The translations under genes and the position numbers were made by a program. The notes under the pieces were generated by a model. The model was not told the DNA's origin and ran no database searches. It was given only the letters and a program-made list of their open reading frames with translations. A stretch of 64,000 bases of DNA from NCBI GenBank assembly GCA_003327425.1, contig QOQW01000002.1, positions 62,001 through 126,000 on the forward strand. Direction: 5' to 3'. How positions within the stretch are numbered: the stretch's first letter is position 1; each line of letters opens with the position of its first letter. Shown here one piece after another: positions 13,506-26,677 of the stretch. The stretch comes from Candidatus Ozemibacter sibiricus (lineage in GTDB: Bacteria; Muiribacteriota; Ozemobacteria; Ozemobacterales; Ozemobacteraceae).

Positions 13506-14921
13506 TCAGCCTTTCAGCAGTTTCTCCCCGAACGCGCACAAGGCGTCGAGCACCTCGGGCGAGCGGGCCTCGGCGTAGTAGCGCACGACGGGTTCGGTGC
13601 CCGAGAACCGCAACAGCACCCAGGCCCCATTCTCGAGCAGGAACTTGGTACCGTCGATCTTGACTGTATTCCCCACTTTGAACCCCGCGATTTCCTTGAA
13701 CGGCTCGCGGATCTTCTGCTCGGCTCGTTGCTTCTGTTCGGGGGTCAGGCGGAAATTGAGCCGGCGCGTGACATAGGTGCCGACCTTGCGATAGAGATCG
13801 GCCAGGAGCTGGTCGAGCGACTGGCCGCGGCTCGCCACCATCTCGGCGACCAGCAGGCACGCGATGATGCCATCTTTTTCGGGAACATGTCCCTTGATGC
13901 TCAAGCCGGCCGATTCTTCGCCCCCGAGCAGGATCTTGTCCTTGGCGATCAGATCCCCGATGTATTTGAACCCGACCGGGGTCTCGAACACCTCGATGCC
14001 GTGGTGCTGGGCCACGGCATCGATCAGATGGGTGGTGGCCACCGACCGGGCCACGCCGCCGGTCCAGCCCCGGGAGGTCTTGAGGTGGTCGAGCATCAGG
14101 CCCAGGATCTGGTTGGGTTCGAAGAACTTCCCGCCCCGGCCCAGAATGCCGAATCGGTCGGCATCGCCGTCGGTAGCCAGGCCGAGATCGAAATCGCCTT
14201 CCCGCATGCGGGCGATCATGTCGGGAATGTGGCTTTCGGAGGGCTCGGGCGGTTGGTTCCCGAAATAGGGATCGAGATGGTCGTTCATGACCTCGATCTG
14301 GCAGCCCGCTTCGCGCAGGAGGCGGTCGAGGTAGCCGCGCGCCGTGCCGTAGAGCGGGTTGACCAGGATCTTCAAGCCGGCCTTCTTGATGACCTCGAGC
14401 CGCACTTTCTCGCGCAAGGTGGCCAGATAGGGCTCCATCGGGTCGATCTTCTCGACCCGCCCCTGCTGCAGGGCCTCGGCCAGGGGCATCGTCTTGGGGG
14501 CCGGGCCGTTCTTCAGCAAGGCATTGGCCCGCCGCTCGATGTCGCCGGTCGTCTCGGGGAGGGCCGGGCCGCCCCAGTCGGGACTGAACTTCAAGCCCTG
14601 GTATTCGGGGGGATTGTGGCTGGCCGTGAAATTGAACCCGCCCGCCGCCTTCCGCCGCAGGATCTCATGGCTGATGACCGGCGTCGGCGTATCGCGAATG
14701 CACAGGTAGCTCTTGATGCCGTTGGCGGCCAGCACCTCGGCCGCCGTCTCCATGAACCGGCTGGACAGGAACCGGGTGTCGCTGCCGATGACCACCCCGC
14801 CGGTCTTGCCGTGGGCGTTCAGATGATCGGCGATCGCCTGGGTGCAGATGCGCACATTCTGGAACGTGAAGCCATCGGCGATGATATCGCGCCAACCGGA
14901 CGTACCGAATTTGATTTCCAT
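13506..14921 (-). CDS. Phosphohexomutase (phosphoglucomutase/phosphomannomutase, alpha-D-phosphohexomutase family)
   Basis: Interconverts hexose 1- and 6-phosphates through a phosphoserine enzyme. The four-domain family signatures are present: FGTSGWR at the N-terminus, the active-site serine loop TASHNPPEYQG, metal-binding DGDADR, sugar-recognition GGEESAG, and the phosphate-binding RFSGTEP near the C-terminus. At 471 residues the length is normal. The specificity (glucose versus mannose versus glucosamine) cannot be fixed by eye; the GEESAG loop and FGTSGWR start are common to PMM/PGM-type enzymes rather than GlmM. It would supply sugar nucleotides for envelope polysaccharide. Confidence 0.92.
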   Translation of the reverse strand: MEIKFGTSGWRDIIADGFTFQNVRICTQAIADHLNAHGKTGGVVIGSDTRFLSSRFMETAAEVLAANGIKSYLCIRDTPTPVISHEILRRKAAGGFNFTASHNPPEYQGLKFSPDWGGPALPETTGDIERRANALLKNGPAPKTMPLAEALQQGRVEKIDPMEPYLATLREKVRLEVIKKAGLKILVNPLYGTARGYLDRLLREAGCQIEVMNDHLDPYFGNQPPEPSESHIPDMIARMREGDFDLGLATDGDADRFGILGRGGKFFEPNQILGLMLDHLKTSRGWTGGVARSVATTHLIDAVAQHHGIEVFETPVGFKYIGDLIAKDKILLGGEESAGLSIKGHVPEKDGIIACLLVAEMVASRGQSLDQLLADLYRKVGTYVTRRLNFRLTPEQKQRAEQKIREPFKEIAGFKVGNTVKIDGTKFLLENGAWVLLRFSGTEPVVRYYAEARSPEVLDALCAFGEKLLKG

Positions 14922-15315
14922 GCATTCCTCCCTTGATGTCGATGGTCTCCAGTCTACCCCCCACCCTCATCCCTCGCAACCACCGTGGCGCTACGTCTGG
15001 AAGGCCCACGGGCGGACCCTGGTATACGCGCGAAGGCCACCCACTCGCAGCCACCGTGGCGTACGTCTGGAAGGCCCACGCCGTCATGGCGAGCAGGGGG
15101 CCGAACGTGGGCGCGACCGGCTCCTGACCCTGGCGAATGCCCATGGCATCGATTGCGGGCGGGGGCCATCGCCTTCGGCCGCCCAGGAGACCAGGTTCCC
15201 CAGCCCCGTCGGAATTCCTCTTCACCGGAGCGACCCTGCTGACAAGACCTTGGGAGGCATGACACTTTTGCGCCGGCGCCATCGCCATACCAGGCCCCCC
15301 AGGCGACCCTTGCCT
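14922..15315. other. Non-coding interval between pgm and arsR, with a direct repeat
   Basis: About 390 bases without a convincing gene. It holds two copies of a 37/38-base sequence (14973-15010 and 15044-15080), described separately. Open frames crossing it on both strands are low-complexity and stop inside neighbouring genes. Confidence 0.6.
14973..15080. repeat. Two near-identical 37/38-base direct repeats, 71 bases apart
   Basis: Copy 1 (14973-15010) and copy 2 (15044-15080) both start CTCGCA, share CCACCGTGGCG and end TACGTCTGGAAGGCCCACG. They differ by one substitution (A/G at the seventh base) and one inserted C. The 71-base period with non-identical spacer between copies does not look like CRISPR with only two units. 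Confidence 0.75.
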
Positions 15316-15345
15316 TATAATTCCAAAAATGGAATATTGGAATAT
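15316..15345 (+). promoter_or_regulatory. arsR promoter -10 and probable ArsR operator
   Basis: TATAAT (15316-15321) runs into a perfect inverted repeat ATTCCA-AAAA-TGGAAT (15320-15335), followed by a tandem copy of TGGAATAT (15330-15337 and 15338-15345) ending at the start codon. No good -35 is seen. An AT-rich dyad over the -10 and start is the usual place for an ArsR/SmtB autorepressor. Confidence 0.65.
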
Positions 15346-15651
15346 ATGCAATCGGAGTTGAAAACCTTCCAACGGCGGGCGGCCATCGCCGGCGCCCTGG
15401 CCCACCCCCTGCGTCTGCGAATTCTCGATCATTTGCATCGCCATGGAGCCACTTGCGTCTGCCAGCTGGTCGCCGCCTTCGGCTGCCAGCAACCGGTCAT
15501 GAGCAAGCACCTGCTCATCCTGAAGCAACATGGATTGGTCGACATGTGGAAAGAAGGGTTGAAGACCTTTTATTTCCTTAAGACCCCATGCATTCTGAAA
15601 TTTTTCGAATGCGCCGACCGGGCCTTCGAAAGCCACAAAAATTCGCTCTAG
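15346..15651 (+). CDS. arsR: ArsR/SmtB family metalloid-responsive repressor
   Basis: A 101-residue winged-helix repressor. The ATG at 15346 directly follows the operator-like repeats; longer in-frame extension to 14842 is not protein-like. The family pattern is complete: ALAHPLRLRILDHL (helix 1-2), CVCQL with C37 and C39, the recognition helix QQPVMSKHLLILKQHGLV and a wing. The CxC pair is the As(III) site of ArsR proteins; additional cysteines C47, C82 and C89 could complete a three-thiolate site. It probably represses itself and the downstream thioredoxin/permease genes, releasing them when As(III) or a similar ion binds. Confidence 0.93.
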   Translation: MQSELKTFQRRAAIAGALAHPLRLRILDHLHRHGATCVCQLVAAFGCQQPVMSKHLLILKQHGLVDMWKEGLKTFYFLKTPCILKFFECADRAFESHKNSL

Positions 15652-15669
15652 GCAAAGGAGACTACCCCA

Positions 15670-15903
15670 ATGAAGATTCAGATCCTGGGAACTGGTTGCG
15701 CCAAGTGCACCAAGCTCGCGGAACTCGCCAAGCAGGCGGCTGACGAGCTGAATCTCTCGTACGAACTGGTGAAGGTCACCAATCTCAACGAAATCATGGG
15801 CTTCGGGGTGATGGTCACCCCCGCCCTCGCCGTCGACGGCACCGTCAAGGTCTCCGGCAAGGTTCCCTCCCTCGACGAGATCAAGAAGCTTCTGCAGTCC
15901 TGA
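15670..15903 (+). CDS. Small thioredoxin-fold protein (MTH895/TM0996 redox-disulfide family)
   Basis: A 77-residue cytosolic thioredoxin-like protein with the active site CAKC (C10-C13) after the first beta strand and the cis-proline context VMVTPALAVDG. AAGGAGA precedes the ATG, 18 bases after arsR. This short family is often found beside arsR and DUF318/ArsP permeases; the presumed role is to pass electrons to, or collect metalloid for, the membrane proteins encoded next. That role is inference from neighbourhood. Confidence 0.9.
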   Translation: MKIQILGTGCAKCTKLAELAKQAADELNLSYELVKVTNLNEIMGFGVMVTPALAVDGTVKVSGKVPSLDEIKKLLQS

Positions 15904-15923
15904 CAGAAACGCTCCCACGCCAA

Positions 15924-15939
15924 CGGGCTGATCAGCCCG
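15924..15939. repeat. Perfect 16-base palindrome between the two thioredoxin genes
   Basis: CGGGCTGATCAGCCCG (15924-15939) is its own reverse complement. It sits in the 75-base gap between 15903 and 15979, so it could be an mRNA stem that tunes relative expression within the operon or an operator. Confidence 0.55.
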
Positions 15940-15978
15940 CGGTTCGCCCCTGCCCATATCTGCCCCAAGGAGAAACTC

Positions 15979-16524
15979 ATGCCTCGGTTTGTTCGTTTTT
16001 GTCTGCTGGGTTTGATCGCCCTCGCCCTGGTTTCTGGGGCCTTCCAGTTCGACGCGGCGCCCTGCTCTTGCAGCAGAGAGGCGGCCTTCGCCCAAGGCCC
16101 CGCCGATTCCCCGGCCGCCCCCGCTGGTACCCCTGTTCCAGAAGATGCCGGCACGGGTTCGTTTCCCGCGCCGGCGGCCTCCGCCCCCCCACCGACGGCC
16201 GCGGCCAGCCCCGCGGCTACCCCTGCCCCGGCCCGGCCTCTGCCCAAAATGGTCGATCTCGGGGCCGGCAAATGCCTGGCCTGCCAGAAGATGAAGCCAG
16301 TGCTCGAGGAAGCGACCGCTCGCTTCGCCGGGAAGGCCGAAATCGTTTTCATCGACGTTTGGGCCGACCGCGAGGCCGGCAGCCAGTATGGCATCCGGAT
16401 GATCCCGACCCAGATCTTCTTCGACGCTGATGGCAACGAAGTCTTCCGGCACGAGGGATTCTTCTCCCTCGAAGACATCACCGCCCAGTTCGAAAAGATG
16501 GGCGTGGTGGTCAAGAAGGAATAG
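15979..16524 (+). CDS. Exported thioredoxin-domain protein, 181 residues
   Basis: An N-terminal signal (about 1-27, RFCLLGLIALALVSGA) is followed by CSC (29-31), then a Pro/Ala-rich linker to residue 90 and a thioredoxin domain. The active site is CLAC (C99, C102), with cis-proline P143 in MIPTQIFFD and the family ending GFFSLEDITAQF. The linker suggests that a membrane- or surface-tethered domain reaches into the periplasm. Two bases separate it from the CcdA-like gene, the natural partner that would carry electrons across the membrane to reduce this protein. CAAGGAGAAA lies before the start. Confidence 0.9.
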   Translation: MPRFVRFCLLGLIALALVSGAFQFDAAPCSCSREAAFAQGPADSPAAPAGTPVPEDAGTGSFPAPAASAPPPTAAASPAATPAPARPLPKMVDLGAGKCLACQKMKPVLEEATARFAGKAEIVFIDVWADREAGSQYGIRMIPTQIFFDADGNEVFRHEGFFSLEDITAQFEKMGVVVKKE

Positions 16525-16526
16525 GC

Positions 16527-17210
16527 ATGGATTTCGGCGCCCTCGAACAGAGCCTCGCCGAGCTCATCGCCACCTCGGCCTGGCTGGCCCCGCTGGCCGC
16601 CTTCGTGGGCGGGGCGCTGACCGCGCTCAACCCCTGCGTCCTGGCCACGGTCCCGTTGATCATCGGCGTGGTCGGCGGCTATGCGCCGGGCGAAGGCGCC
16701 TGGAAGCGGGCAGCCGGGTTCAGCTTCTTCTTCGTCGTGGGCTTCGCGCTCGAGCTGGCGGTCCTGTTCTCGGTGTCGGCCGCCGTCGCCCCGTATCTGA
16801 CCGGGCCCTCTTGGCGCTATGTCATCGCCGCGATCTGCTTCTTCCTCGGCCTGCACCTGCTGCTCGAGTTCCAGATTCCGGCGGTGGTCAGCCTGCCGGC
16901 CGGGAAATGGGGCGGCATCGCCGGGGTGACGATGCTCGGGTTCCTGTTCGGCCTCGTGTCCATGCCTTGCTCGGGCCCAGTCTTGATGCTACTGGCCAGT
17001 CTCGTCCCCGAACTGGGCGTGCCTCGGGCCGGCACCCTGCTCTTCTTCTACGGCGTTGGACACTCGATCCTGATTCTGATCGCCGGCATCTCGGTCGGAA
17101 CGGTGCAGGCGCTGGCCGATGCCAGGGGCATGCACCGGGCCGTTCGGGTGGTCAAGAAGATCGCGGCCGTCTTGATCCTCGGCGTCGGCCTCTATTTCCT
17201 GCGTTCTTGA
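16527..17210 (+). CDS. ccdA: CcdA/DsbD-type transmembrane thiol-disulfide electron carrier
   Basis: A 227-residue membrane protein with about six helices. The paired active cysteines lie in NPCVLATVPL (C37) and MPCSGPV (C148), the hallmark of CcdA. The family moves reducing equivalents from cytosolic thioredoxin to periplasmic thioredoxin-fold proteins. Here both likely partners are adjacent: the CAKC protein (15670) on the cytosolic side and the exported CLAC protein (15979) outside. No cytochrome c maturation genes are near, so the target is probably the metal/metalloid system rather than cytochrome assembly. Confidence 0.9.
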   Translation: MDFGALEQSLAELIATSAWLAPLAAFVGGALTALNPCVLATVPLIIGVVGGYAPGEGAWKRAAGFSFFFVVGFALELAVLFSVSAAVAPYLTGPSWRYVIAAICFFLGLHLLLEFQIPAVVSLPAGKWGGIAGVTMLGFLFGLVSMPCSGPVLMLLASLVPELGVPRAGTLLFFYGVGHSILILIAGISVGTVQALADARGMHRAVRVVKKIAAVLILGVGLYFLRS

Positions 17211-17324
17211 GCCGTGACGGTGACGCCCCCGGTCTCCCTGACCGTGGGAGATCGGTCTGACTCACCATCCCCCTTCTTCCCTCAGGCTTTTACCCAGGAG
17301 GGAGCAACACCAGGAGCCGCCTCG

Positions 17325-18791
17325 ATGAACTGGAAAGACGAATGGAAGACCTTGTTGACCATGATCCTCGTATTCCTCGGCTGCTACTACCTGCCGGTGG
17401 GCACGCCCCGCTTCGACCAGGCGACCATGGAAGCCCTGCATCTGGTCAAGTGGTATGCTCGCGAGCACGTGCTGCTCTGCCTGGTTCCGGCCTTTTTCAT
17501 CGCCGGCGCCATCACCATCTTCATCAGCCAGGCCTCGGTCATGAAATACCTTGGACCGCATGCCAACCCCGTGCTGGCCTACGCCGTTGCCTCGGTATCG
17601 GGCTCCATCCTGGCGGTCTGCTCCTGCACCGTGCTGCCGCTGTTCAATGGCATCTACAAGATGGGGGCCGGCCTCGGCCCGGCCTGCACCTTCCTGTATT
17701 CCGGCCCCGCCATCAACGTGCTGGCCATCATCATGAGCGCCCGCGTCCTGGGCATGGATCTGGGCATCGCCCGGGCCATCGGCGCCATCGGATTCAGCAT
17801 CGTCATCGGCGGGCTCATGCACCTGATCTTCCGTGACGAGGAAGAAGCCAAAGCCAGCGCGGCCGCCCAGATGCCTGCTGCGGACACCGGGCGGCCCCTC
17901 TGGCACAACCTCGTCTTCTTCGGAGCGATGATCGGGGTGCTGGTCTTCGCCAATTGGGGAAAACCTCAGAGCGTCGAGCTGACCTTGCGCGACGGCGCCG
18001 TAATCATCGGGGATATCCAGGAAGAGATCGAGGGTGCCCCGGATCTCAAGGTGAAGATCGCGACGGCCACCGGTCGAGCCTGGGCGCCCTCCTCGGTCCA
18101 GGCGATCCCCCTGGCCGACATCGTGCAGCGCTCGATTCCCGACAGCCCCTGGAAGACCATCTGGCGCGCGAAATGGGCGGTGACCGCCGCGTTCGCCCTG
18201 GCGTTGCTCATCATCCTGGGCACGCTGCTGCGCATGGCCTGGTGGCGCGTCGGCGTCACCCTGGCCGCCGGGGTGATCGGGTATCTGGCCAGCCCCGACG
18301 ACCCGCTGGTGCCTTTCGTCGCCGGCGTGATCGCCCTGAGCGCCATGACCTCGACCGCCGACGACGAGACCAGGGACTGGTTCGTCGCCAGCTGGGACAA
18401 TGCCAAGATGATCCTGCCGCTGCTGCTGGGAGGGGTGTTGGTGGCCGGTCTGCTGCTCGGGCGCGTCGGTCACGAGGGGCTCATCCCCAGCGCCTGGGTC
18501 ACGGCGATGGTCGGCGGCAATTCCCTGTTCGCCAATCTGTTCGCCTCGGTGTTCGGCGCCTTCATGTATTTCGCCACCCTCACCGAGGTGCCCATCGTGC
18601 AAGGCCTGATCGGCAGCGGCATGGGCAAAGGGCCGGCCCTGGCCTTGCTGCTGGCCGGCCCTGCCCTGTCCTTGCCCAACATGCTGGTCATCTGGGAAAT
18701 CATGGGTACCAAGAAGACGCTCGTCTTCGTCAGCCTGGTCATCGTCATGGCCACCCTGGTCGGCCTGCTGTTCGGCGCTTTCTTCGGTTAG
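17325..18791 (+). CDS. DUF318/ArsP-type permease, 488 residues
   Basis: I start it at ATG 17325 (AGGAG at 17312-17316) rather than an upstream in-frame GTG at 17214 without a ribosome site. There are about ten hydrophobic segments. The N-terminal half carries the family signature VCSCTVLPLF (C99 and C101) followed by GPACTFLYSGPAINVLA; a related half repeats near the C-terminus (TEVPIVQGLIGSGMGKGPALALLLAGPALSLPN). Residues about 205-265 form a soluble loop between the halves. Family members include ArsP, which exports trivalent organoarsenicals, and close relatives proposed to export Cu/Zn. The arsR and arsM context favours arsenic, but the substrate is inference. Confidence 0.85.
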   Translation: MNWKDEWKTLLTMILVFLGCYYLPVGTPRFDQATMEALHLVKWYAREHVLLCLVPAFFIAGAITIFISQASVMKYLGPHANPVLAYAVASVSGSILAVCSCTVLPLFNGIYKMGAGLGPACTFLYSGPAINVLAIIMSARVLGMDLGIARAIGAIGFSIVIGGLMHLIFRDEEEAKASAAAQMPAADTGRPLWHNLVFFGAMIGVLVFANWGKPQSVELTLRDGAVIIGDIQEEIEGAPDLKVKIATATGRAWAPSSVQAIPLADIVQRSIPDSPWKTIWRAKWAVTAAFALALLIILGTLLRMAWWRVGVTLAAGVIGYLASPDDPLVPFVAGVIALSAMTSTADDETRDWFVASWDNAKMILPLLLGGVLVAGLLLGRVGHEGLIPSAWVTAMVGGNSLFANLFASVFGAFMYFATLTEVPIVQGLIGSGMGKGPALALLLAGPALSLPNMLVIWEIMGTKKTLVFVSLVIVMATLVGLLFGAFFG

Positions 18792-19213: not shown

Positions 19214-20743
19214 ATGGCCAAGGGGATCGCCTACGGTATCGCCTGTCTTCTTCTCGCAACATGGATCCTTCCGGCTTGGGCCGCGCCCTCGACCACGGCG
19301 GCCAGCGCCACCGCGGCCGTGGTTCCGCCCGGTTCGAAGAAGGAGAAGCCGCCGACCAAGCCCACCGCCGGCTGGAGCTTCTCCAGCACGAATACCTTGC
19401 GGCACGAATACTGGAACACCTTCCAGGCGGTCAACAGCCCCCTCGATCCTTCCTATTCCCTGCTGGCCGATCGTCTGGCCTTGACGCTCAAGCATCAGAA
19501 CCCGGCCACCGTTTTCACCGCCACCCTCAATGTCGTCAAATTCCTGAACCTGCCCGAAGACACCTCCTTCGGGTCGGCCTCGACCTATTCCACCAATGGC
19601 GTCCGCGAAAACGACGCCAAAGTATATGTCCGCGTCATGAACTTCACCTTCAAGCGCCTGGGCGACAAGCGCCTGACCGCGACCATCGGCCGATTCAACT
19701 TCGCCAACGGCACCGAATGGAAGGGCAGCGATCCCACCGTGGAATGGGTGAAGAACAACCGCATCGCCGACCGCCTGCTCGGCCAACCCAACTGGACCAT
19801 GCTGCAACGCTCCATGAACGGCCTGGTGCTCAAACACGATCTGCCGCGTTTCCAGCTCGCGGCTTCGGCGTGGAAACCCACCGCCGGCACGTATTCAGAA
19901 CAAGCTGGCGATCTGATCAACGACATCAAGGTCTTCACCCTGGCCGGCACCCACAAGTTCGATACCGCCCTCCCGCGCCAGGAGGTCCAATGGTTCGCCT
20001 ACGAGTACGACGATCACCGCCCCATCGTGGCCCCGCGCGGCGACAACGCCGTCACCGGCGCGGCCCAGACTCCGCGCCGCTCGACCGATGGCATCGACGT
20101 GCGCATCCGAACCTATGGAGTATCAGCCGTCGGCGCCTATGACTGCCCCACCGGCCGGGTCGATACCATGGTCTGGTGGGCGGTGCAGCGGGGCGACTGG
20201 TATGAGCTCACCCATCGGGCCCATGCCGTCGCCCTCGAGCTGGGCCACCAATGGACGAAAGCCCCGTGGAAGCCGTGGCTGCGTGCCGGTCTGAACCAAT
20301 CATCCGGCGATGCCGATCCGCACGACGGCACCCATGGCACCTTCTTCTTGATGCTACCCAGTCGCAAGTATTCCAACTGCAATGCCTACAATCAATCAAA
20401 CCTCAAGGACTACCTTCTGCAACTTTCCGTCAAGCCATCCGCGCGAGCCGACCTGCGTTTCGACTATCACCGGTTGCGCCTGACCGAAGGGGCCGATCGC
20501 TGGTATACCGGAGGCGGGGCCATGGCCAACACCGGGCCAGGCAACGGCTTCACGGCGCGCAAGACCGGCGGCAAGACCGATCTCGGTTCAGTATTCGAAT
20601 TCCTTGGCACCTACACGTTGTCCAAAGAGCACAAGGTCAACCTGTTCGTCAGCCGGCTCAGAGGCGGCGATGCCATCGACGCCTCTTTCGGAGCCAAACG
20701 AGATCAGACCTTTTCCTATCTCGAGCTGGTCACCGATTTTTGA
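19214..20743 (+). CDS. Outer-membrane beta-barrel porin (alginate-export/DUF1302-like)
   Basis: A clear signal peptide (1-23, ending PAWA) is followed by a Thr/Lys/Pro segment and about 430 residues of alternating beta-strand pattern rich in Tyr, Trp and Arg. The protein ends YLELVTDF, an outer-membrane beta-signal with terminal Phe. The local motifs (WSFSSTNTLRHEYW near the mature N-terminus, ATIGRFNFANGTEWKG, LRFDYHRLRL) resemble alginate-export-type barrels, which form anion-selective channels in relatives. It precedes the ModA-like binding protein by 29 bases, so it may supply the same anion across the outer membrane. The exact family is a judgement by eye. Confidence 0.8.
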   Translation: MAKGIAYGIACLLLATWILPAWAAPSTTAASATAAVVPPGSKKEKPPTKPTAGWSFSSTNTLRHEYWNTFQAVNSPLDPSYSLLADRLALTLKHQNPATVFTATLNVVKFLNLPEDTSFGSASTYSTNGVRENDAKVYVRVMNFTFKRLGDKRLTATIGRFNFANGTEWKGSDPTVEWVKNNRIADRLLGQPNWTMLQRSMNGLVLKHDLPRFQLAASAWKPTAGTYSEQAGDLINDIKVFTLAGTHKFDTALPRQEVQWFAYEYDDHRPIVAPRGDNAVTGAAQTPRRSTDGIDVRIRTYGVSAVGAYDCPTGRVDTMVWWAVQRGDWYELTHRAHAVALELGHQWTKAPWKPWLRAGLNQSSGDADPHDGTHGTFFLMLPSRKYSNCNAYNQSNLKDYLLQLSVKPSARADLRFDYHRLRLTEGADRWYTGGGAMANTGPGNGFTARKTGGKTDLGSVFEFLGTYTLSKEHKVNLFVSRLRGGDAIDASFGAKRDQTFSYLELVTDF

Positions 20744-20772
20744 TTCCCACCCACCTTCCAAGGAGAACGCAC

Positions 20773-21645
20773 ATGTTGAAGAAAATCCTGGCAGTCCTAG
20801 TCGCCTGCACGATGATGACCCTGCCTGCCGCCTCGCCGGCCCGTGGGGAGGAACGGCTCCTGTTCATGTGCGGAGCCGCGGCGGCCCCGGTCGCCGACCT
20901 GCTGGCCAAGGGCTTCGAGGCCAAGACCGGCGTCAAGGTCGATGTCAACACTGGGGGCTCAGGGATGCTGCTGTCGCAGATCAAGCTGGCCAAGAAAGGC
21001 GACGTCTATTTCCCCGGTTCGATCGATTTCATCGAACAAGCCAAGGCCGAGGGCCTCATCGACCCGACCACCATCGCGCCGATCGTCTACCTCGTCCCGG
21101 CCATCCTGGTACAGCCCGGCAATCCCCACGGCATCAGGTCGTTGAAAGACCTGTGCCGGCCCGGCCTCAAGGTGATCATCGCCAACCCCGAAACCGTCTG
21201 TCTTGGCGTCTTCGCCACCGAAATGGTCGAGAAGTTGTTTTCTCCCGAAGAGAAGAAGGCGTTTCGAGCCAATCTCGTCAACTACACCGAAAGCTGCGAG
21301 AAAACGGCCAATGCCATCAGCATGAAAGCGGCCGATGCCATTCTCGGCTGGAGCGTCTTCCAGCACTGGAATCCGGAACTGATCGAGGCGGTCAAACTGT
21401 CCCCCGACGAGGTCCTGCGCATCAGCTACCTGGCGGTGGCCGTGCCATTGTGCGCCCAAAACCCCAAGCGAGCAAAAGAATTCATCGAGTATATGAAATC
21501 GCCAGAAGGGCTCGAACAGTTCAAGAAGTTCAAGTATTTCACCACCCCCGAAGAAGCCCTGGCCTACCTCGGCGCCGAGAAACCGGTCGGCGGCGAACCG
21601 TACAAGGTTCCGTCCGAATGGCTGAATCCCCCTTCCCAACATTGA
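20773..21645 (+). CDS. ModA-like periplasmic oxyanion-binding protein
   Basis: The start at ATG 20773 follows CAAGGAGAA. A signal peptide (1-26, ending SPARG) leads into a 265-residue type 2 periplasmic binding fold. It opens with LLFMCGAAAAPVADLLAKGFE, followed by GGSGMLLSQIKLAKKGDVYFPG and later GVFATEMVEK, the layout of molybdate/tungstate-type proteins. The FMCGAA segment replaces the usual FAASSL, so a Cys/Gly sits in the first anion-binding loop. With the adjacent permease and ATPase it makes a complete importer. The ligand (molybdate, tungstate or another tetrahedral anion) cannot be read from the sequence. Confidence 0.85.
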   Translation: MLKKILAVLVACTMMTLPAASPARGEERLLFMCGAAAAPVADLLAKGFEAKTGVKVDVNTGGSGMLLSQIKLAKKGDVYFPGSIDFIEQAKAEGLIDPTTIAPIVYLVPAILVQPGNPHGIRSLKDLCRPGLKVIIANPETVCLGVFATEMVEKLFSPEEKKAFRANLVNYTESCEKTANAISMKAADAILGWSVFQHWNPELIEAVKLSPDEVLRISYLAVAVPLCAQNPKRAKEFIEYMKSPEGLEQFKKFKYFTTPEEALAYLGAEKPVGGEPYKVPSEWLNPPSQH

Positions 21646-21646
21646 G

Positions 21647-22426
21647 ATGAACAACGGTTTTCGGCGGCTGACGATCCTGACCGCCTGGGCGCTGTTCGCC
21701 TTCTTCGGCGTTCTCATCCTCAGCCTGTCCGGATTCGTCACCCCCGCCCGCCTGGTGGCCGTGGCGACCTCGCCGCGCGTGCTGTTCTCGATGAAAATCA
21801 GCGTGGGGGCGGCGATGCTGGCCACCCTGCTGTCGCTCGCCGTCGCCATTCCCACCGGCTATGCCCTGTCGCGCTTCGAGTTCTTCGGCAAGCGGGCGAT
21901 CGACCTCGCCCTGGAGATCCCCATGGTGGTCACGCCGGTCGCCCTGGGGGCTTTGCTCCTCATGTTCTTCAATACTCGGCTTGGCGAACTCATCCAACAG
22001 AGCCGGATCTCCTTCGTCTTCGAGTTTCCGGGCATCGTGCTCGCCCAGTTCGTGACCACGGTCGGCATCGCCACCCGCATGCTCAAGACGACGTTCGACG
22101 AGATCCCCGCCCGCTACGAGGCAGTCGCCTGCACGCTCGGCGCCACGCCCGCCCAGGCCTTCCGCCTGGTCACCCTGCCCATGGCCGTGCCGGGCATCCT
22201 CGCCGCCACCGTGCTCACCTTCGCCAAGTGCATCGGCGAGTTCGGTGCCACCATCATGCTGGCCGGATCCATGCCGATGAAGACCGAGACCCTGCCCATC
22301 TCGATCTTCATGCGGCTGTCCGGGGCCGACGTCGAGGGCATGGCGGTCCTCATCCTGATCCTCCTCGGCGTCGGACTGTCCTCGTTGGCCCTGGTCAAAT
22401 CATTGATCAGACGGTCCTATGATTGA
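21647..22426 (+). CDS. ModB-like ABC transporter permease
   Basis: A 259-residue inner-membrane permease with about six helices. The EAA coupling loop is EAVACTLGATPAQAFRLV, with LPMAVPGILAA after it, matching ModB/CysT-type permeases. The segment AKCIGEFGATIMLAG is also characteristic of molybdate-type permeases. It starts one base after the binding-protein stop and overlaps the ATPase start by 8 bases, so the three are translated together. Confidence 0.9.
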   Translation: MNNGFRRLTILTAWALFAFFGVLILSLSGFVTPARLVAVATSPRVLFSMKISVGAAMLATLLSLAVAIPTGYALSRFEFFGKRAIDLALEIPMVVTPVALGALLLMFFNTRLGELIQQSRISFVFEFPGIVLAQFVTTVGIATRMLKTTFDEIPARYEAVACTLGATPAQAFRLVTLPMAVPGILAATVLTFAKCIGEFGATIMLAGSMPMKTETLPISIFMRLSGADVEGMAVLILILLGVGLSSLALVKSLIRRSYD

Positions 22427-23519
22427 GCTGCAGGGAGTCCATGCCCGTGTGGGGTCCTTCCGGCTGGCCGACATCCATGTCGCGATCGGCCCGGGCGATT
22501 GCCATGTCATCGTCGGTCCGACCGGCTCGGGCAAGACCTTCCTGCTCGAGACGCTGATCGGCCTGCGCCCGATGGAGGCCGGAACCATCCGCATCCATGG
22601 CCAGGACGTCACCGGGCTTCCACCCAATCAGCGTCAGATTTCCTACGTTCCTCAAGATATCTGCCTCTTTCCCACGTTGACGGTCCGGCAGAATATCCAG
22701 TTCGGGCTCGACCTCCGCCCCCGCTTCGACAGCCAGGATCTCGCCTTCGTCGGCCGGCTGGTCGATTTCCTGCGGCTTTCCGCCATTCTCGATCGCTACC
22801 CTCGCAACCTGAGCGGCGGAGAACGCCAGCGGGTGGCTTTGGCCCGGGCCCTGGCGACCAAGCCCGCCCTGCTGGTACTCGACGAACCGTTTTCGGCGAT
22901 CGACCACTCCTTGCGCGAAGAGATCCGCCGCATGATCAAAGACCTGCTCGAAGAGTTCAAGACCACGACCCTCATCGTCACCCACGACCTCGACGAAGCC
23001 TTCTTCCTCGGCGACCGGATCTCCATCATCCTGGGCGGGCGCATCGTCCAGTCGGGGCCTCGCGACGAGATGTACTACCATCCGAAATCCCTGCCGGCCG
23101 CCGAGTTCCTCGGCATCCGGAATCTCTTCGCCGGCCGCGTCGAGCAGCTCGCCCAGCACGAGATCACCATCTCCAGCCCCGACCTGGAACGGACCTTCAC
23201 CGTCCCCTGCCGGTGCGCTCACAAACGGTTCACCGCCGGACAGGCCATCCGGTTCGGCATTCGCTCGGAAGCGGTCCACATCCTGCGCCACCAGCCGACT
23301 CCCGAAGACAGCCGGCTGGTCTTCGGCGCCCGCGTGCGCCGGGTATTCGTTCGCGGTACCATGCACACCCTCATCGTCGAGCTGGGCACTCCCCGACCGG
23401 TCACGGTCGAGATCGATCTGCACGATGCCGCCATGCGCAAGCTCGGGGTGACCCTCGGGGCGGCACTCCAGGTCAGCCTGAACCCCCGGCACATCTTCCT
23501 GCTTCCTGAGCCGGCTTGA
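22419..23519 (+). CDS. ModC-like ABC transporter ATPase with C-terminal TOBE-type region
   Basis: The 366-residue ATP-binding subunit has Walker A GPTGSGKT (33-40), signature NLSGGERQRVALARAL, Walker B LLVLDEPFSAID and the switch histidine in IVTHDLDEAF. After residue ~240 comes a C-terminal region with RFGIRSEAVHIL and ARVRRVFVRGTMHTLIVEL, typical of the TOBE/MOP-like regulatory domains of ModC and FbpC-type subunits. Mo-responsive feedback would be plausible but depends on ligand identity. Confidence 0.92.
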   Translation: MIELQGVHARVGSFRLADIHVAIGPGDCHVIVGPTGSGKTFLLETLIGLRPMEAGTIRIHGQDVTGLPPNQRQISYVPQDICLFPTLTVRQNIQFGLDLRPRFDSQDLAFVGRLVDFLRLSAILDRYPRNLSGGERQRVALARALATKPALLVLDEPFSAIDHSLREEIRRMIKDLLEEFKTTTLIVTHDLDEAFFLGDRISIILGGRIVQSGPRDEMYYHPKSLPAAEFLGIRNLFAGRVEQLAQHEITISSPDLERTFTVPCRCAHKRFTAGQAIRFGIRSEAVHILRHQPTPEDSRLVFGARVRRVFVRGTMHTLIVELGTPRPVTVEIDLHDAAMRKLGVTLGAALQVSLNPRHIFLLPEPA

Positions 23520-23608: not shown

Positions 23609-24058
23609 TCACGTCGGCGGGTCTTCCTCTTCCGTGCGGCGCGAGCGGTAGATTTTCTTGGGACGCAGCTTGCACGCGCACTGCCCGATGAGCATCTCGT
23701 CGTCGATGATCTTGGTCGGCAGCCCGTCGCGTTCCCAGTCGACGATCCCGCCGTTCAGATTGGCGATCTCCGTGTAGCCGCGCTCCTGCAGCAGCAGGAA
23801 GGCCTTCTTGCTGTTCACCCCGACCGAATCAGCCAGGATCAAGGGGCGATCCCGCGGCAGCCGGTCGCATTCTTCCGGAAAACGGCTGAAGGGAATGCTG
23901 ATCACGTTCTCCACGGCGAAATACTTCCCGTTCTTTTCCATGTCTTCCCGGACATCGACCAGGGTCGCGCCCTGCCGGACCAGTTCGAACGCCTCCCGTG
24001 GCGACAGATGGATCACCCCGGCAATGTGTAGACCGCGCTCACCGAAGAATCTGCTCAT
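23609..24058 (-). CDS. Rhodanese-like protein without the catalytic cysteine
   Basis: A 149-residue single rhodanese domain: HLSPREAFELVRQGATLVDVRE, the IPFSRF loop and NLNGGIVDWERDGLP are all in register with the family. The active-site loop normally CRSGxRS reads ADSVGVNS (76-83), with Asp at the cysteine position (D77), so sulfur transfer by the classical route is not possible. A C-terminal extension has CAC (C127, C129) followed by basic residues, and C64 lies in the middle. It is the last gene of the arsM-arsR-acr3 unit, 42 bases after acr3, suggesting a metalloid-binding or regulatory job. Confidence 0.85.
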   Translation of the reverse strand: MSRFFGERGLHIAGVIHLSPREAFELVRQGATLVDVREDMEKNGKYFAVENVISIPFSRFPEECDRLPRDRPLILADSVGVNSKKAFLLLQERGYTEIANLNGGIVDWERDGLPTKIIDDEMLIGQCACKLRPKKIYRSRRTEEEDPPT

Positions 24059-24100: not shown

Positions 24101-25306
24101 TCATGCCGCGTTCTCAGGCCGGGGCGCGAACCAGTGGACGGTCCCCTGGCAGATGCGGACGAGCCAGAGCATGAGCGGCACCTCGATCAGCACCCCGACT
24201 ACGGTCGCCAGAGCCGCCCCCGACGACAGCCCGAACAGCATGGTGGCAGTGGCGATGGCCACCTCGAAATGGTTCGAGGCCCCGATCATGGCGGACGGGG
24301 CCGCATCTTCGTAGGTCAGCCCCAGCAGCTTGGCCAGCCCGTAGCCGAGCCAGAAGATCAGCAAGGTCTGGATGCACATGGGAATGGCCAGCCACAGAAT
24401 GGTCAGAGGGTTGCCCAAAATGACCTCGCCTTTGAATGAGAACAGCAGCACGAGCGTCAGCAGCAAGGCCCCGACGGTGATCGGGGTCAGGAAGGGCAGG
24501 AACGATCGATTGAACCATTCTTCCCCCTTGGCGGCGATGATCCACCGCCGGGAGAAGTAGCCGGCCAGCAGCGGCAGAGCGACATAGACGCCGATCGACA
24601 GCAGCAGGGCCTGCCATGGCACCGGCAGCTTGCCGACGCCGAGCAGGAAACCGCCGAGCGGCCCGTACAAGAAGAGCATGGTCAGGCTGTTGATGGCCAC
24701 CATGACCAGGGTGTGCCCGGCGTTGCCGCGCGCGAGGAAGCCCCACACCAGCACCATCGCCGTGCATGGCGCGATGCCGAGCAGGATGCAACCCGCCAGA
24801 TAGCTCCGCCACAGCGGCACTTCGAGCATCTTGACCCCGTTGACCAGCACGACCTTCCCCTCGCCATGGCGGGCATCGACCGGCAGGTCGAGCCCTAGAG
24901 GCATCTTGACCAGGTCGGTGGCGTCGGGACCGATGAACCCGAGAAACACGGTGCCCAGGAAGAACAGGCAGATGGCATACATGGTGAAGGGCTTGATCGC
25001 CCAGTTGATGAACAGCGTCAAGCCGACGGGCTTCACGCTCCGCCCTGCCTTGAGAACTTCGGCGAAATCGATCTTGACCATGATCGGGTACATCATGAAG
25101 AACAGGCAGATGGCGATGGGAATCGAGACCACCGGCGCCTCGTTGACGGTGATGGCGAGGCTGTCCAGCCAGGTCGCCACCCCGGGCGCCACTTTGCCGA
25201 GGACGATGCCGGCCACGATGCAGAGCGCGACCCAGATCGTCAGATAGCGTTCGAAGAAACCCAGCCCTTGGGGTTCTTTGGTGATGCAAGCGTCGGTGGT
25301 GGTCAT
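24101..25306 (-). CDS. acr3: ACR3 family arsenite efflux permease
   Basis: Exports As(OH)3 from the cytosol using the proton gradient. The 401-residue protein has ten predicted helices. Key landmarks are [24 protein letters not shown] with the essential cysteine C181, and [14 protein letters not shown] with the conserved Glu in the C-terminal half. Compared with family members as I know them, there is an extra ~25-residue polar segment before the Cys helix (about 138-163, [18 protein letters not shown]). The start overlaps the arsR stop by ATGA, so the pair is coupled. Confidence 0.95.
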
Positions 25307-25695
25307 GGCAGGGAACGCTCCTTTCGCGTGCGCGCGCGCTTGAGGGGAGGGCAGATCTCCTCGACCGGGCGCGCCAGAATCTTTTTCAGACGGGCCGCAT
25401 CGCGGGTTCGGATGGGATCATCCCGCAGACTCCGGTCGACCAGGGCCAGAGCTTCCCGTACGAGGCGGGGGGCCCGCGCGCCAGCTCGACGGCAATACAC
25501 CCACTTGCCTTCCTGCCGGCGCTCGATCAACCCGGCGTGGGTGAGCAGGAAGAGATGCCGCGAGATCGTCGATGGCGCCAGCTTCAGCAAGGCGATGAGC
25601 TGACAGATGCAGAGTTCGCCGGCTTCGAGGGCGAGCAGGATGCGCAGGCGAGAGGGATCGGCCAGGGCTTTGGCAATGGCCAGCAGCGCGTTCAT
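25303..25695 (-). CDS. arsR: ArsR family repressor of the arsM-acr3 operon
   Basis: I use the ATG at 25695, overlapping the arsM stop (ATGA), rather than an upstream in-frame ATG at 25725. The 130-residue protein has [16 protein letters not shown], the As(III)-type ELCICQL (C29, C31), the recognition helix [17 protein letters not shown] and wing EGKWVYCRR (C68). A ~45-residue basic C-terminal tail is longer than usual. It differs clearly from the other ArsR at 15346, so each half of the island has its own regulator. Confidence 0.93.
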
Positions 25696-26597
25696 GTCGC
25701 TCGCCCTCCAGGGGCGACCTCGCACGCGCCCGGTTTGATCGCCGCAATGGCGAGACTGGTGACGTAATCGGCCAGCGAGGCACCGGCCGGCAGGGCGGCC
25801 ATGATCTCCTGATAGAGCGGGTCGTGGCTCGCCAGCATGGCCTCGATCGCCTGCGGCTTCTCGGCGAACCGCACCTCGTCGAACCCAGCGGCGGTCATCC
25901 AGGCCCGGATCTCGTCGATGGGCGCGGCGCCTGCCACACAGCCGATCAAGGCCGCCACCGACTGGCGGATCGCCGGGGGAAGAGGCCGGCGCAACGCCAG
26001 ATCGGCGATGGCCAACCGACCGCCCGGCCGCAGCACCCGGAAGATCTCGCGCCAGACCTGGGCCTGGTCGGGCGAGAGATTGAGCACGCAGTTGGAAATG
26101 ACCACGTCGACCGACTGATCGGCCACCGGCAGATGCTCGATCTCACCGAGCCGGAACTCGACGTTGGCCAGCCCGGTGCGGGCAGTGAACTCGGGCAGCA
26201 GACCGCGCGCCCGCGTCAGCATGTCGGGTGTCATGTCGACCCCGATGACCCGACCGGCGGGCCCGACCCGGGGGCCGGCCACGAAACAGTCGAACCCACC
26301 GCCGCATCCCAGGTCGAGCACGACCTCGCCCGGCCGCAAGGCCGCCAGGGCGGTGGGATGTCCGCACGACAGGCCCAGATTGGCCCCGGCCGGCAGCGCC
26401 GCCAGATCGGCGTCCTGGTAGCCGAGAGCGGCGACCAGTTGTTCCGGAGCGGGGCTCCCGCAGCACGAAGAAGGAGACGCCGCCCCCGCGCCACAGCAGC
26501 CGCCTTGCCCGCGCGCGATCCGGCCGTAGCCGTCCCGCACCGTCAGGCGAATCTGATCGGGGCGGATCGCGGTCACCTTCACGTCCTGGTCAGCCAT
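25692..26597 (-). CDS. arsM: Arsenite S-adenosylmethionine methyltransferase
   Basis: Methylates As(III) to mono- and dimethyl species with SAM and thiols. The 301-residue protein has the SAM-binding motif VLDLGCGGGFD (93-103), then GVDMTPDML, and the three ArsM cysteines C78 (LGLSCGHP), C170 (ISNCVLNL) and C220 (ALIGCVAG). The N-terminal pairs CC (34-35 and 45-46) resemble the extra Cys pairs of bacterial ArsM. It is the first gene behind the 26649-26677 promoter. Its volatile or organoarsenical products are natural substrates for an ArsP-type permease (17325). Confidence 0.95.
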   Translation of the reverse strand: MADQDVKVTAIRPDQIRLTVRDGYGRIARGQGGCCGAGAASPSSCCGSPAPEQLVAALGYQDADLAALPAGANLGLSCGHPTALAALRPGEVVLDLGCGGGFDCFVAGPRVGPAGRVIGVDMTPDMLTRARGLLPEFTARTGLANVEFRLGEIEHLPVADQSVDVVISNCVLNLSPDQAQVWREIFRVLRPGGRLAIADLALRRPLPPAIRQSVAALIGCVAGAAPIDEIRAWMTAAGFDEVRFAEKPQAIEAMLASHDPLYQEIMAALPAGASLADYVTSLAIAAIKPGACEVAPGGRAT

Positions 26598-26620: not shown

Positions 26621-26677
26621 TCATTTCGTCAAATGTCGAAACGAGGAAATGATACCGCCAGGTGTCCTGGTTGGCAA
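26621..26677 (-). promoter_or_regulatory. ars operon promoter with nested inverted repeats
   Basis: On the minus strand TTGCCA (26672-26677), a 17-base spacer and TATCAT (26649-26654) make a good promoter for arsM-arsR-acr3. Just downstream lie TTTCG-N8-CGAAA (26624-26641) and TCATTTC-N18-GAAATGA (26621-26652), overlapping dyads that are probable ArsR binding sites covering the start point. Confidence 0.7.

Follow-up and report, generated by a model that had tools for sequence, protein, structure and literature searches.

A rhodanese-fold family with aspartate at the catalytic cysteine position and a conserved CxC tail, probably an arsenic-handling protein

Background

Single-domain sulfurtransferases of the PF00581 family, such as GlpE, possess an active-site loop with a motif that we take to be C-x-x-G-x-x-S. 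The product of the gene that we denote rhd (hereinafter Rhd) has in common with these enzymes the fold and the length of the loop, which reads D-S-V-G-V-N-S, but differs from the GlpE type in that aspartate replaces the catalytic cysteine and a C-terminal CxC tail is added. The arsenite metallochaperone ArsD has a fold different from that of rhodaneses; like Rhd, it is a small cytosolic cysteine-containing protein of ars operons, and the job that we propose for Rhd is similar.

Arsenate reductases of the Acr2p or Cdc25 type share with Rhd the Rhodanese/Cdc25 superfamily and the arsenic context. According to the accessible part of PMC6272796, these reductases require a His-Cys-x5-Arg motif in a seven-residue loop; this identity was rejected for Rhd, the loop of which, ADSVGVNSK, contains no HCx5R motif, no cysteine and no arginine. 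The R773 ArsR repressor binds As(III) through Cys32, Cys34 and Cys37, and two cysteines suffice for methylarsenite, MAs(III) (PMC11868830, in the portion available). The CxCx(L/I) stretch of this type 1 site (Cys32-x-Cys34..Cys37) is common to the Rhd tail and to the ArsR encoded in the window, that is, the whole 64,000-nucleotide stretch of DNA analysed here; in ArsR, the site belongs to the DNA-binding domain and is completed for As(III) by a third cysteine, whereas in Rhd the stretch is located in the tail and comprises two cysteines.

Inactive rhodanese domains that carry aspartate are already known (same part of PMC6272796), and so is the type of operon in which rhd resides; the novelty lies in a conserved branch for which we found no description in the open-access literature. 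A search of open-access full texts, judged by title and the start of the abstract, yielded no published account of a D-loop/CxC-tail rhodanese family; in the parts that could be viewed, PMC5525254, PMC6620896 and PMC9751042 deal with other rhodanese proteins or contain too little to tell.

A rhodanese-fold protein encoded at the end of an arsenic operon

The rhd gene is the last one in a compact minus-strand operon with the order arsM-arsR-acr3-rhd (Table 1). The acr3 gene shares 4 nt with arsR and lies 42 nt from rhd, and an in-frame ATG at 25695, as an alternative start of arsR, would produce a 4-nt overlap with arsM. The original prediction, made from the DNA alone, had placed rhd in an ars operon, and the profile matches above the respective cut-offs for acr3, arsR and arsM, all on the strand of rhd, confirm this placement; there is no arsC within the operon. 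The start codon of rhd is backed by relatives that align from residue 1, and a Shine-Dalgarno-like GAGGAGG is located immediately 5' of the gene. A consensus scan of the region yielded two promoter-like sites against 0.3 expected, which is no evidence of function.

Table 1. Features of the rhd operon and of the second arsenic-type cluster in the window
Feature	Position	Strand	Basis
rhd, D-loop / CxC-tail rhodanese-fold protein P0001, 149 aa	23609..24058	-	ORF, PF00581 match
Loop A76-K84, ADSVGVNSK	23807..23833	-	translation and alignment to 6pfz; coordinates computed from ORF start
Asp77 codon, catalytic-Cys position	23828-23830	-	residue-by-residue match to 6pfz
C-terminal tail G125-Q-C127-A-C129-K-L-R-P-K-K135	23654..23686	-	family conservation; coordinates from ORF start
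Cys64, not conserved	23867..23869	-	2/58 family rows
acr3, arsenite efflux transporter	24101..25306	-	TIGR00832 371.3 bits, cut-off 282.8
arsR-family repressor	25303..25725	-	NF033788 82.4 bits, cut-off 55
arsM, arsenite methyltransferase	25692..26597	-	NF008823 304.2 bits, cut-off 263
Promoter-like TTGCCA-17-TATCAT, 5' of arsM, candidate whole-operon promoter	26649..26677	-	consensus scan, 10/12 matches
ArsR-like part with C-V-C-Q-L	within ORF 14842-15651	+	second arsenic-type cluster
Thioredoxin-like protein	15979-16524	+	second arsenic-type cluster
CcdA/DsbD-like protein	16527-17210	+	second arsenic-type cluster
ArsP_1 permease	17214-18791	+	243.1 bits; second arsenic-type cluster

The second arsenic-type cluster of the window spans positions 14842-18791 (+), and a set resembling it adjoins the related gene of another genome of the sample, G010. 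Downstream of the ars operon and convergent with it, positions 20251-23519 (+) are occupied by genes for a ModA/WtpC-like ABC transporter; the best model for the ATPase of this molybdate/tungstate-kind transporter is WtpC, with a score below the cut-off, and we do not count the transporter with the ars system.

Rhd contains a rhodanese-like domain, with a Pfam profile match (PF00581) over residues 25-110 at 39.7 bits (cut-off 22.2). In a residue-by-residue alignment with the solved rhodanese domain of NoxA-3 (6pfz), D77 of the loop A76-D77-S78-V79-G80-V81-N82-S83-K84 pairs with the loop cysteine, so that no other cysteine takes the position of the nucleophile, and a substitute cysteine there is ruled out. 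Rhd thus lacks the catalytic cysteine that opens the six-residue loop of an active sulfurtransferase, and its translation contains three cysteines in total, at positions 64, 127 and 129. The prediction of a rhodanese fold without the catalytic cysteine, with ADSVGVNS in the loop and a C-terminal CAC, is borne out by the profile match, the alignment and the translation. Among the NCBIfam rhodanese models, 12 matched Rhd weakly and none scored above its cut-off, as was also the case for three relatives; the GlpE model NF001195 gave 18.8 against a cut-off of 102, and no ArsD profile was among the Pfam and NCBIfam matches to Rhd up to an E-value of 0.1. An AlphaFold2 model built from a two-sequence input (Rhd and its relative L001) was unusable, with a mean pLDDT of 48.2 and values of 28-35 for residues 91-140. 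The genome that encodes Rhd has five PF00581 matches above the cut-off, at least two of them with the cysteine, and hence the cell possesses ordinary rhodanese domains besides Rhd.

Conservation of the aspartate and of the CxC tail

Genomes were sampled from the phylum of the window and from that of L001. Single-sequence searches identified relatives with 63-70% identity in 2 of the 38 other genomes of the window's phylum, and one with 53-54% identity in a Bacteroidetes MAG. A family profile seeded with five D-type (aspartate-bearing) members, with a hit threshold of E 1e-22 or better, recovered hits in 48 of 247 genomes of a Bacteroidota order (that of G039), that is, about one fifth, in 7 of 164 genomes of the order of G485 and in 4 of 391 genomes of the class of G074, these three samples being overlapping. 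Within the window's phylum, full-length copies scored 228-235 bits in 3 of the 39 genomes, and the next match scored 48.7. A scan of viral contigs detected no family relatives, and the plasmids searched yielded only Cys-type relatives, all below 60% identity (loops read in five).

We aligned the window sequence with 62 rows that comprised all hits from the G485-order and G039-order samples and the two relatives from the phylum; because all profile seeds are D-type, rows with the aspartate and the tail are favoured in these searches. Position 77 is occupied by Asp in 57 rows, Glu in one (L112), Cys in four and Ser in one. Both tail cysteines are retained in 57 of the 58 Asp/Glu rows, L138 being the sole exception, and the combination of Asp and CxC persists in relatives down to about 41% identity; among the same 58 rows, G80 is found in 56 and W108 in all. 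The CxC tail thereby stands as a conserved thiol site, in accord with the emphasis that had been placed on it from the single sequence. The additional cysteine at position 64 that had been pointed out along with it is indeed present in Rhd; a role for this residue was rejected, given that it is conserved in only 2 of the 58 rows.

The idea of a single decaying sulfurtransferase gene, for which nothing speaks beyond the lost cysteine, can be dismissed with near certainty: 57 of the 58 rows share the aspartate, 57 share the CxC pair, and the phylum holds three high-scoring copies. Lone decay, which would have undermined the prediction, was accordingly ruled out. It is also rather improbable that Rhd is an inactive scaffold or regulator, with a fold that serves for partner binding and a CxC pair that ligates zinc or another structural metal. 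A role in signalling has been suggested for known rhodanese domains with Asp or Gly in place of the cysteine (PMC6272796); however, a structural zinc site would normally call for more than two lone tail cysteines, and a near-invariant CxC amid variable surroundings points to thiol chemistry.

Association with arsenic detoxification genes

Gene neighbourhoods were compared within a 5 kb radius for 55 loci of D-type genes with the tail, the window excluded. Neighbours were labelled by phmmer comparison with reference proteins from the same loci at fixed score limits, so that other neighbours are unlabelled, and some contigs end close to the D-type gene. The most frequent neighbours are arsC (28 of the 55 loci), acr3 (26), ArsP-type permeases (24), thioredoxin or CcdA genes (22), arsR (19) and arsM (12), followed by MacB-like ABC transporters (10), ThiF/ThiS (4), arsD (2) and aldehyde:ferredoxin oxidoreductase (2). 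At least one of acr3, arsC, arsM and arsD was found at 33 of the 55 loci compared to none of 20 Cys-type controls treated in the same way, which were hand-picked high-scoring hits from distinct genomes of a phylum-wide sample and did not come from the same order. Together with the operon of the window, this recurrent linkage in several genomes identifies the family as a component of ars operons. When arsR and the permease are added to the four genes, 40 of the 55 loci are covered; at 11 loci, none of these genes and no ThiF/ThiS or oxidoreductase gene was recognised in the stretch examined.

The linkage extends to operon-like arrangements and to whole genomes. Short same-strand gaps or overlaps of D-type genes with arsR, arsC, arsM and acr3 recur; among 55 D-type rows (54 with the tail plus L138, L098 left out), the gene immediately downstream is arsC in 12, and the one immediately upstream is an arsR in 8. 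An acr3 gene is present in 44 of the 48 genomes with a family hit versus 83 of the 199 without one (odds ratio 15, Fisher 1e-10, ignoring relatedness; this test and that of loci against controls take genomes as unrelated). One of the former genomes, G938, has only a Cys-type copy; when it is excluded from them, the counts become 43 of 47 versus 84 of 200.

The abundance of arsC could indicate a redox partner, in which the CxC dithiol/disulfide would reduce the disulfide of an ArsC of the thioredoxin type or connect ArsC with the thioredoxin and CcdA proteins encoded in these islands. For the ArsC of one locus (L046), the best match is the model of the thioredoxin-coupled type (TIGR02691, 127.4 bits, below the cut-off of 174.3), and the frequencies of arsC, nearby as well as immediately downstream, and of thioredoxin or CcdA genes fit this possibility. 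Nevertheless, we consider it unlikely: thioredoxins are already present at many loci, the window operon lacks arsC, and no arsC was recognised within 5 kb of 27 of the 55 loci.

Several neighbourhoods deserve mention in their own right. In G016 (L004, 837-1439, +), an ArsD fused to a carboxymuconolactone-decarboxylase (AhpD-like) domain is encoded directly upstream of the D-type rhodanese, and in G010 (L044, 4624-5130, -), the gene for a DUF2703 protein (114.6 bits) overlaps the D-type gene by 8 nt. A chromate transporter (L134) and a sulfate permease (L118) are each encoded near a single copy. For the gene beside the L137 copy, a MobB-like identity was discarded, Pfam having given no match.

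ThiF-ThiS and tungsten-enzyme contexts

At 4 of the 55 loci (in G074, G543, G458 and G719), the window not being among them, the D-type gene directly follows genes for ThiF and ThiS. Profile models support these neighbours (ThiF, 249.5 bits, cut-off 159; ThiS, 44.0, cut-off 37.45) as well as WtpA. A tungsten-type aldehyde:ferredoxin oxidoreductase (PF01314/PF02730) is encoded close by in G074 and G543. The G074 locus (L045) is, in addition, located near a tungstate importer, the likeness of which to the convergent transporter of the window is perhaps a coincidence. The same aspartate and CxC are kept at the ThiF-ThiS-linked loci, and acr3 is found elsewhere in three of the four genomes. In the G458 copy, the beginning of the protein is missing from the reading frame that was translated. 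The accessible part of PMC1779556 describes rhodanese domains as common on E1-like proteins of ThiS/MoaD systems, of which they are a usual sulfur partner, and MoaD genes beside aldehyde:ferredoxin oxidoreductase were described there in 2006. A ThiF-ThiS-linked rhodanese without the sulfur-carrying cysteine suggests that, here as in the arsenic operons, it is the tail that does the work, and the four loci, two of them with the tungsten-type oxidoreductase, suggest that the tail is used beyond arsenic contexts.

These loci bring up a sulfur relay, with the tail CxC acting as a persulfide swinging arm that delivers sulfur to a ThiS-type carrier, or to arsenic (as thioarsenate) or arsenic enzymes. 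The position directly after ThiF and ThiS and the customary partnership of rhodanese domains with E1/ThiS systems favour such a relay. We nonetheless hold it to have a low probability because the sulfur-receiving loop cysteine is absent from all 58 Asp/Glu rows, none of the 33 loci with core ars genes has ThiF/ThiS nearby, and none of the recurrent neighbours was recognised as a known sulfur donor.

A putative arsenical-binding tail

Dozens of relatives share the same change and are mostly encoded beside arsenic detoxification genes, and for this reason Rhd is probably not a defective enzyme but a protein that handles arsenic and has so far gone undescribed. Judging from sequence and gene context, our tentative reading, which we put at somewhat short of an even chance, is that this conserved branch of dead rhodaneses binds trivalent arsenicals through the tail and passes them on. 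Rhd would then act in the cytosol as a small thiol protein that belongs to arsenic operons and comes from a rhodanese branch without sulfurtransferase activity. The sequence shows that the persulfide chemistry of the loop is lost, aspartate having replaced the catalytic cysteine, and the fold may have been kept as a docking or recognition module. The conserved G-x-C-x-C-x-L-(R/K) tail, presumably flexible, would be the working site, with its two close thiols binding As(III) or, especially, MAs(III). The tail could hand arsenicals over from ArsC or ArsM to the exporters Acr3 and ArsP or, alternatively, shield other thiols from them. A pair of thiols would suit MAs(III), a possible product of ArsM; it would also suit As(III) if a dimer or a partner supplied the third ligand.

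Besides the conservation of Asp and CxC, the split in the tree and the linkage to ars genes, the presence of arsM in the rhd operon supports the arsenical reading, as does the similarity of the tail C-A-C-K-L to the C-I-C-Q-L of the ArsR from the same operon (C39-I-C41-Q-L). Counting against this reading are the normally three-coordinate binding of inorganic As(III), compared with the two thiols of the tail, and the dispensability of the second cysteine of the pair in Arsenicibacter ArsR (both from PMC11868830), along with the four ThiF-ThiS-linked loci that retain D and CxC, the 11 loci without a recognised partner, the low support of the tree split and the occurrence of arsM or ArsP near only 22 of the 33 ars-linked loci. 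Because ArsD adjoins the D-type gene in one relative, the role is not simply that of replacing a missing ArsD. As for the earlier suggestion of a redox, sensor or metalloid-chaperone function instead of sulfurtransfer, its negative half holds up: with the nucleophile lost, the CxC conserved and the family recurrent in arsenic operons, classic thiosulfate sulfurtransfer by the loop is unlikely.

In Acr3-type systems, no carrier is, to our knowledge, generally accepted as delivering trivalent arsenic to ArsM or the exporters. A conserved dithiol protein encoded in Acr3-type operons and found in 48 of the 247 genomes of one Bacteroidota order is a concrete candidate for such a carrier, and would clearly exemplify an enzyme fold that gave up its catalytic residue while an appended tail took on the role of active site. 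A more elaborate and less likely scenario would have the family represent a new class of chaperones for trivalent arsenicals, chiefly methylarsenite, built on a dead rhodanese with a swinging CxC arm, that is widespread in Bacteroidota, was passed to the phylum of the window and has a sister branch that was recruited, with its arm, to ThiF-ThiS/tungsten-enzyme clusters. If true, one dithiol arm would serve both arsenic detoxification and cofactor assembly.

Phylogeny and Cys-type cousins

A FastTree phylogeny of 95 domain sequences (about 100 alignment columns, after masking of the nucleophile column and removal of the tail) separates all 55 D rows and one E row from the 39 other sequences with a low support of 0.25. 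The closest companions of the window sequence in the tree are G016, G010 and the Bacteroidota copy from G039; this group is nested among the Bacteroidota rows, and a transfer between phyla is therefore suggested. The five rows with Cys or Ser in the loop are lower-scoring cousins of the D-type family, with profile scores of 89-105 bits compared to 109-236 bits for complete D rows; three incomplete D rows score 91, 115 and 122 bits.

Cys-type rhodaneses from permease-thioredoxin clusters on plasmids (Cereibacter ORIO, NT-25, Citrobacter and Comamonas) show 34.7-39.4% identity to Rhd and share with the family the permease/thioredoxin vicinity and cysteine-rich tails; the Comamonas gene adjoins acr3/arsC/arsA. 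They differ from the Rhd family in keeping the loop cysteine and in ending with SCCG or a similar tail rather than GxCxCxL(R/K). Three Cys-type cousins, L128, L116 and L133, have CGC-type ends (GCGC, CGCGC and GGCGC), and therefore cysteine-rich tails either are older than the loss of the loop cysteine or had multiple origins. In L133 (G863), a Cys-type and a D-type rhodanese gene form a tandem pair, with a thioredoxin gene and acr3 as neighbours, and a division of labour between the two rhodaneses is possible.
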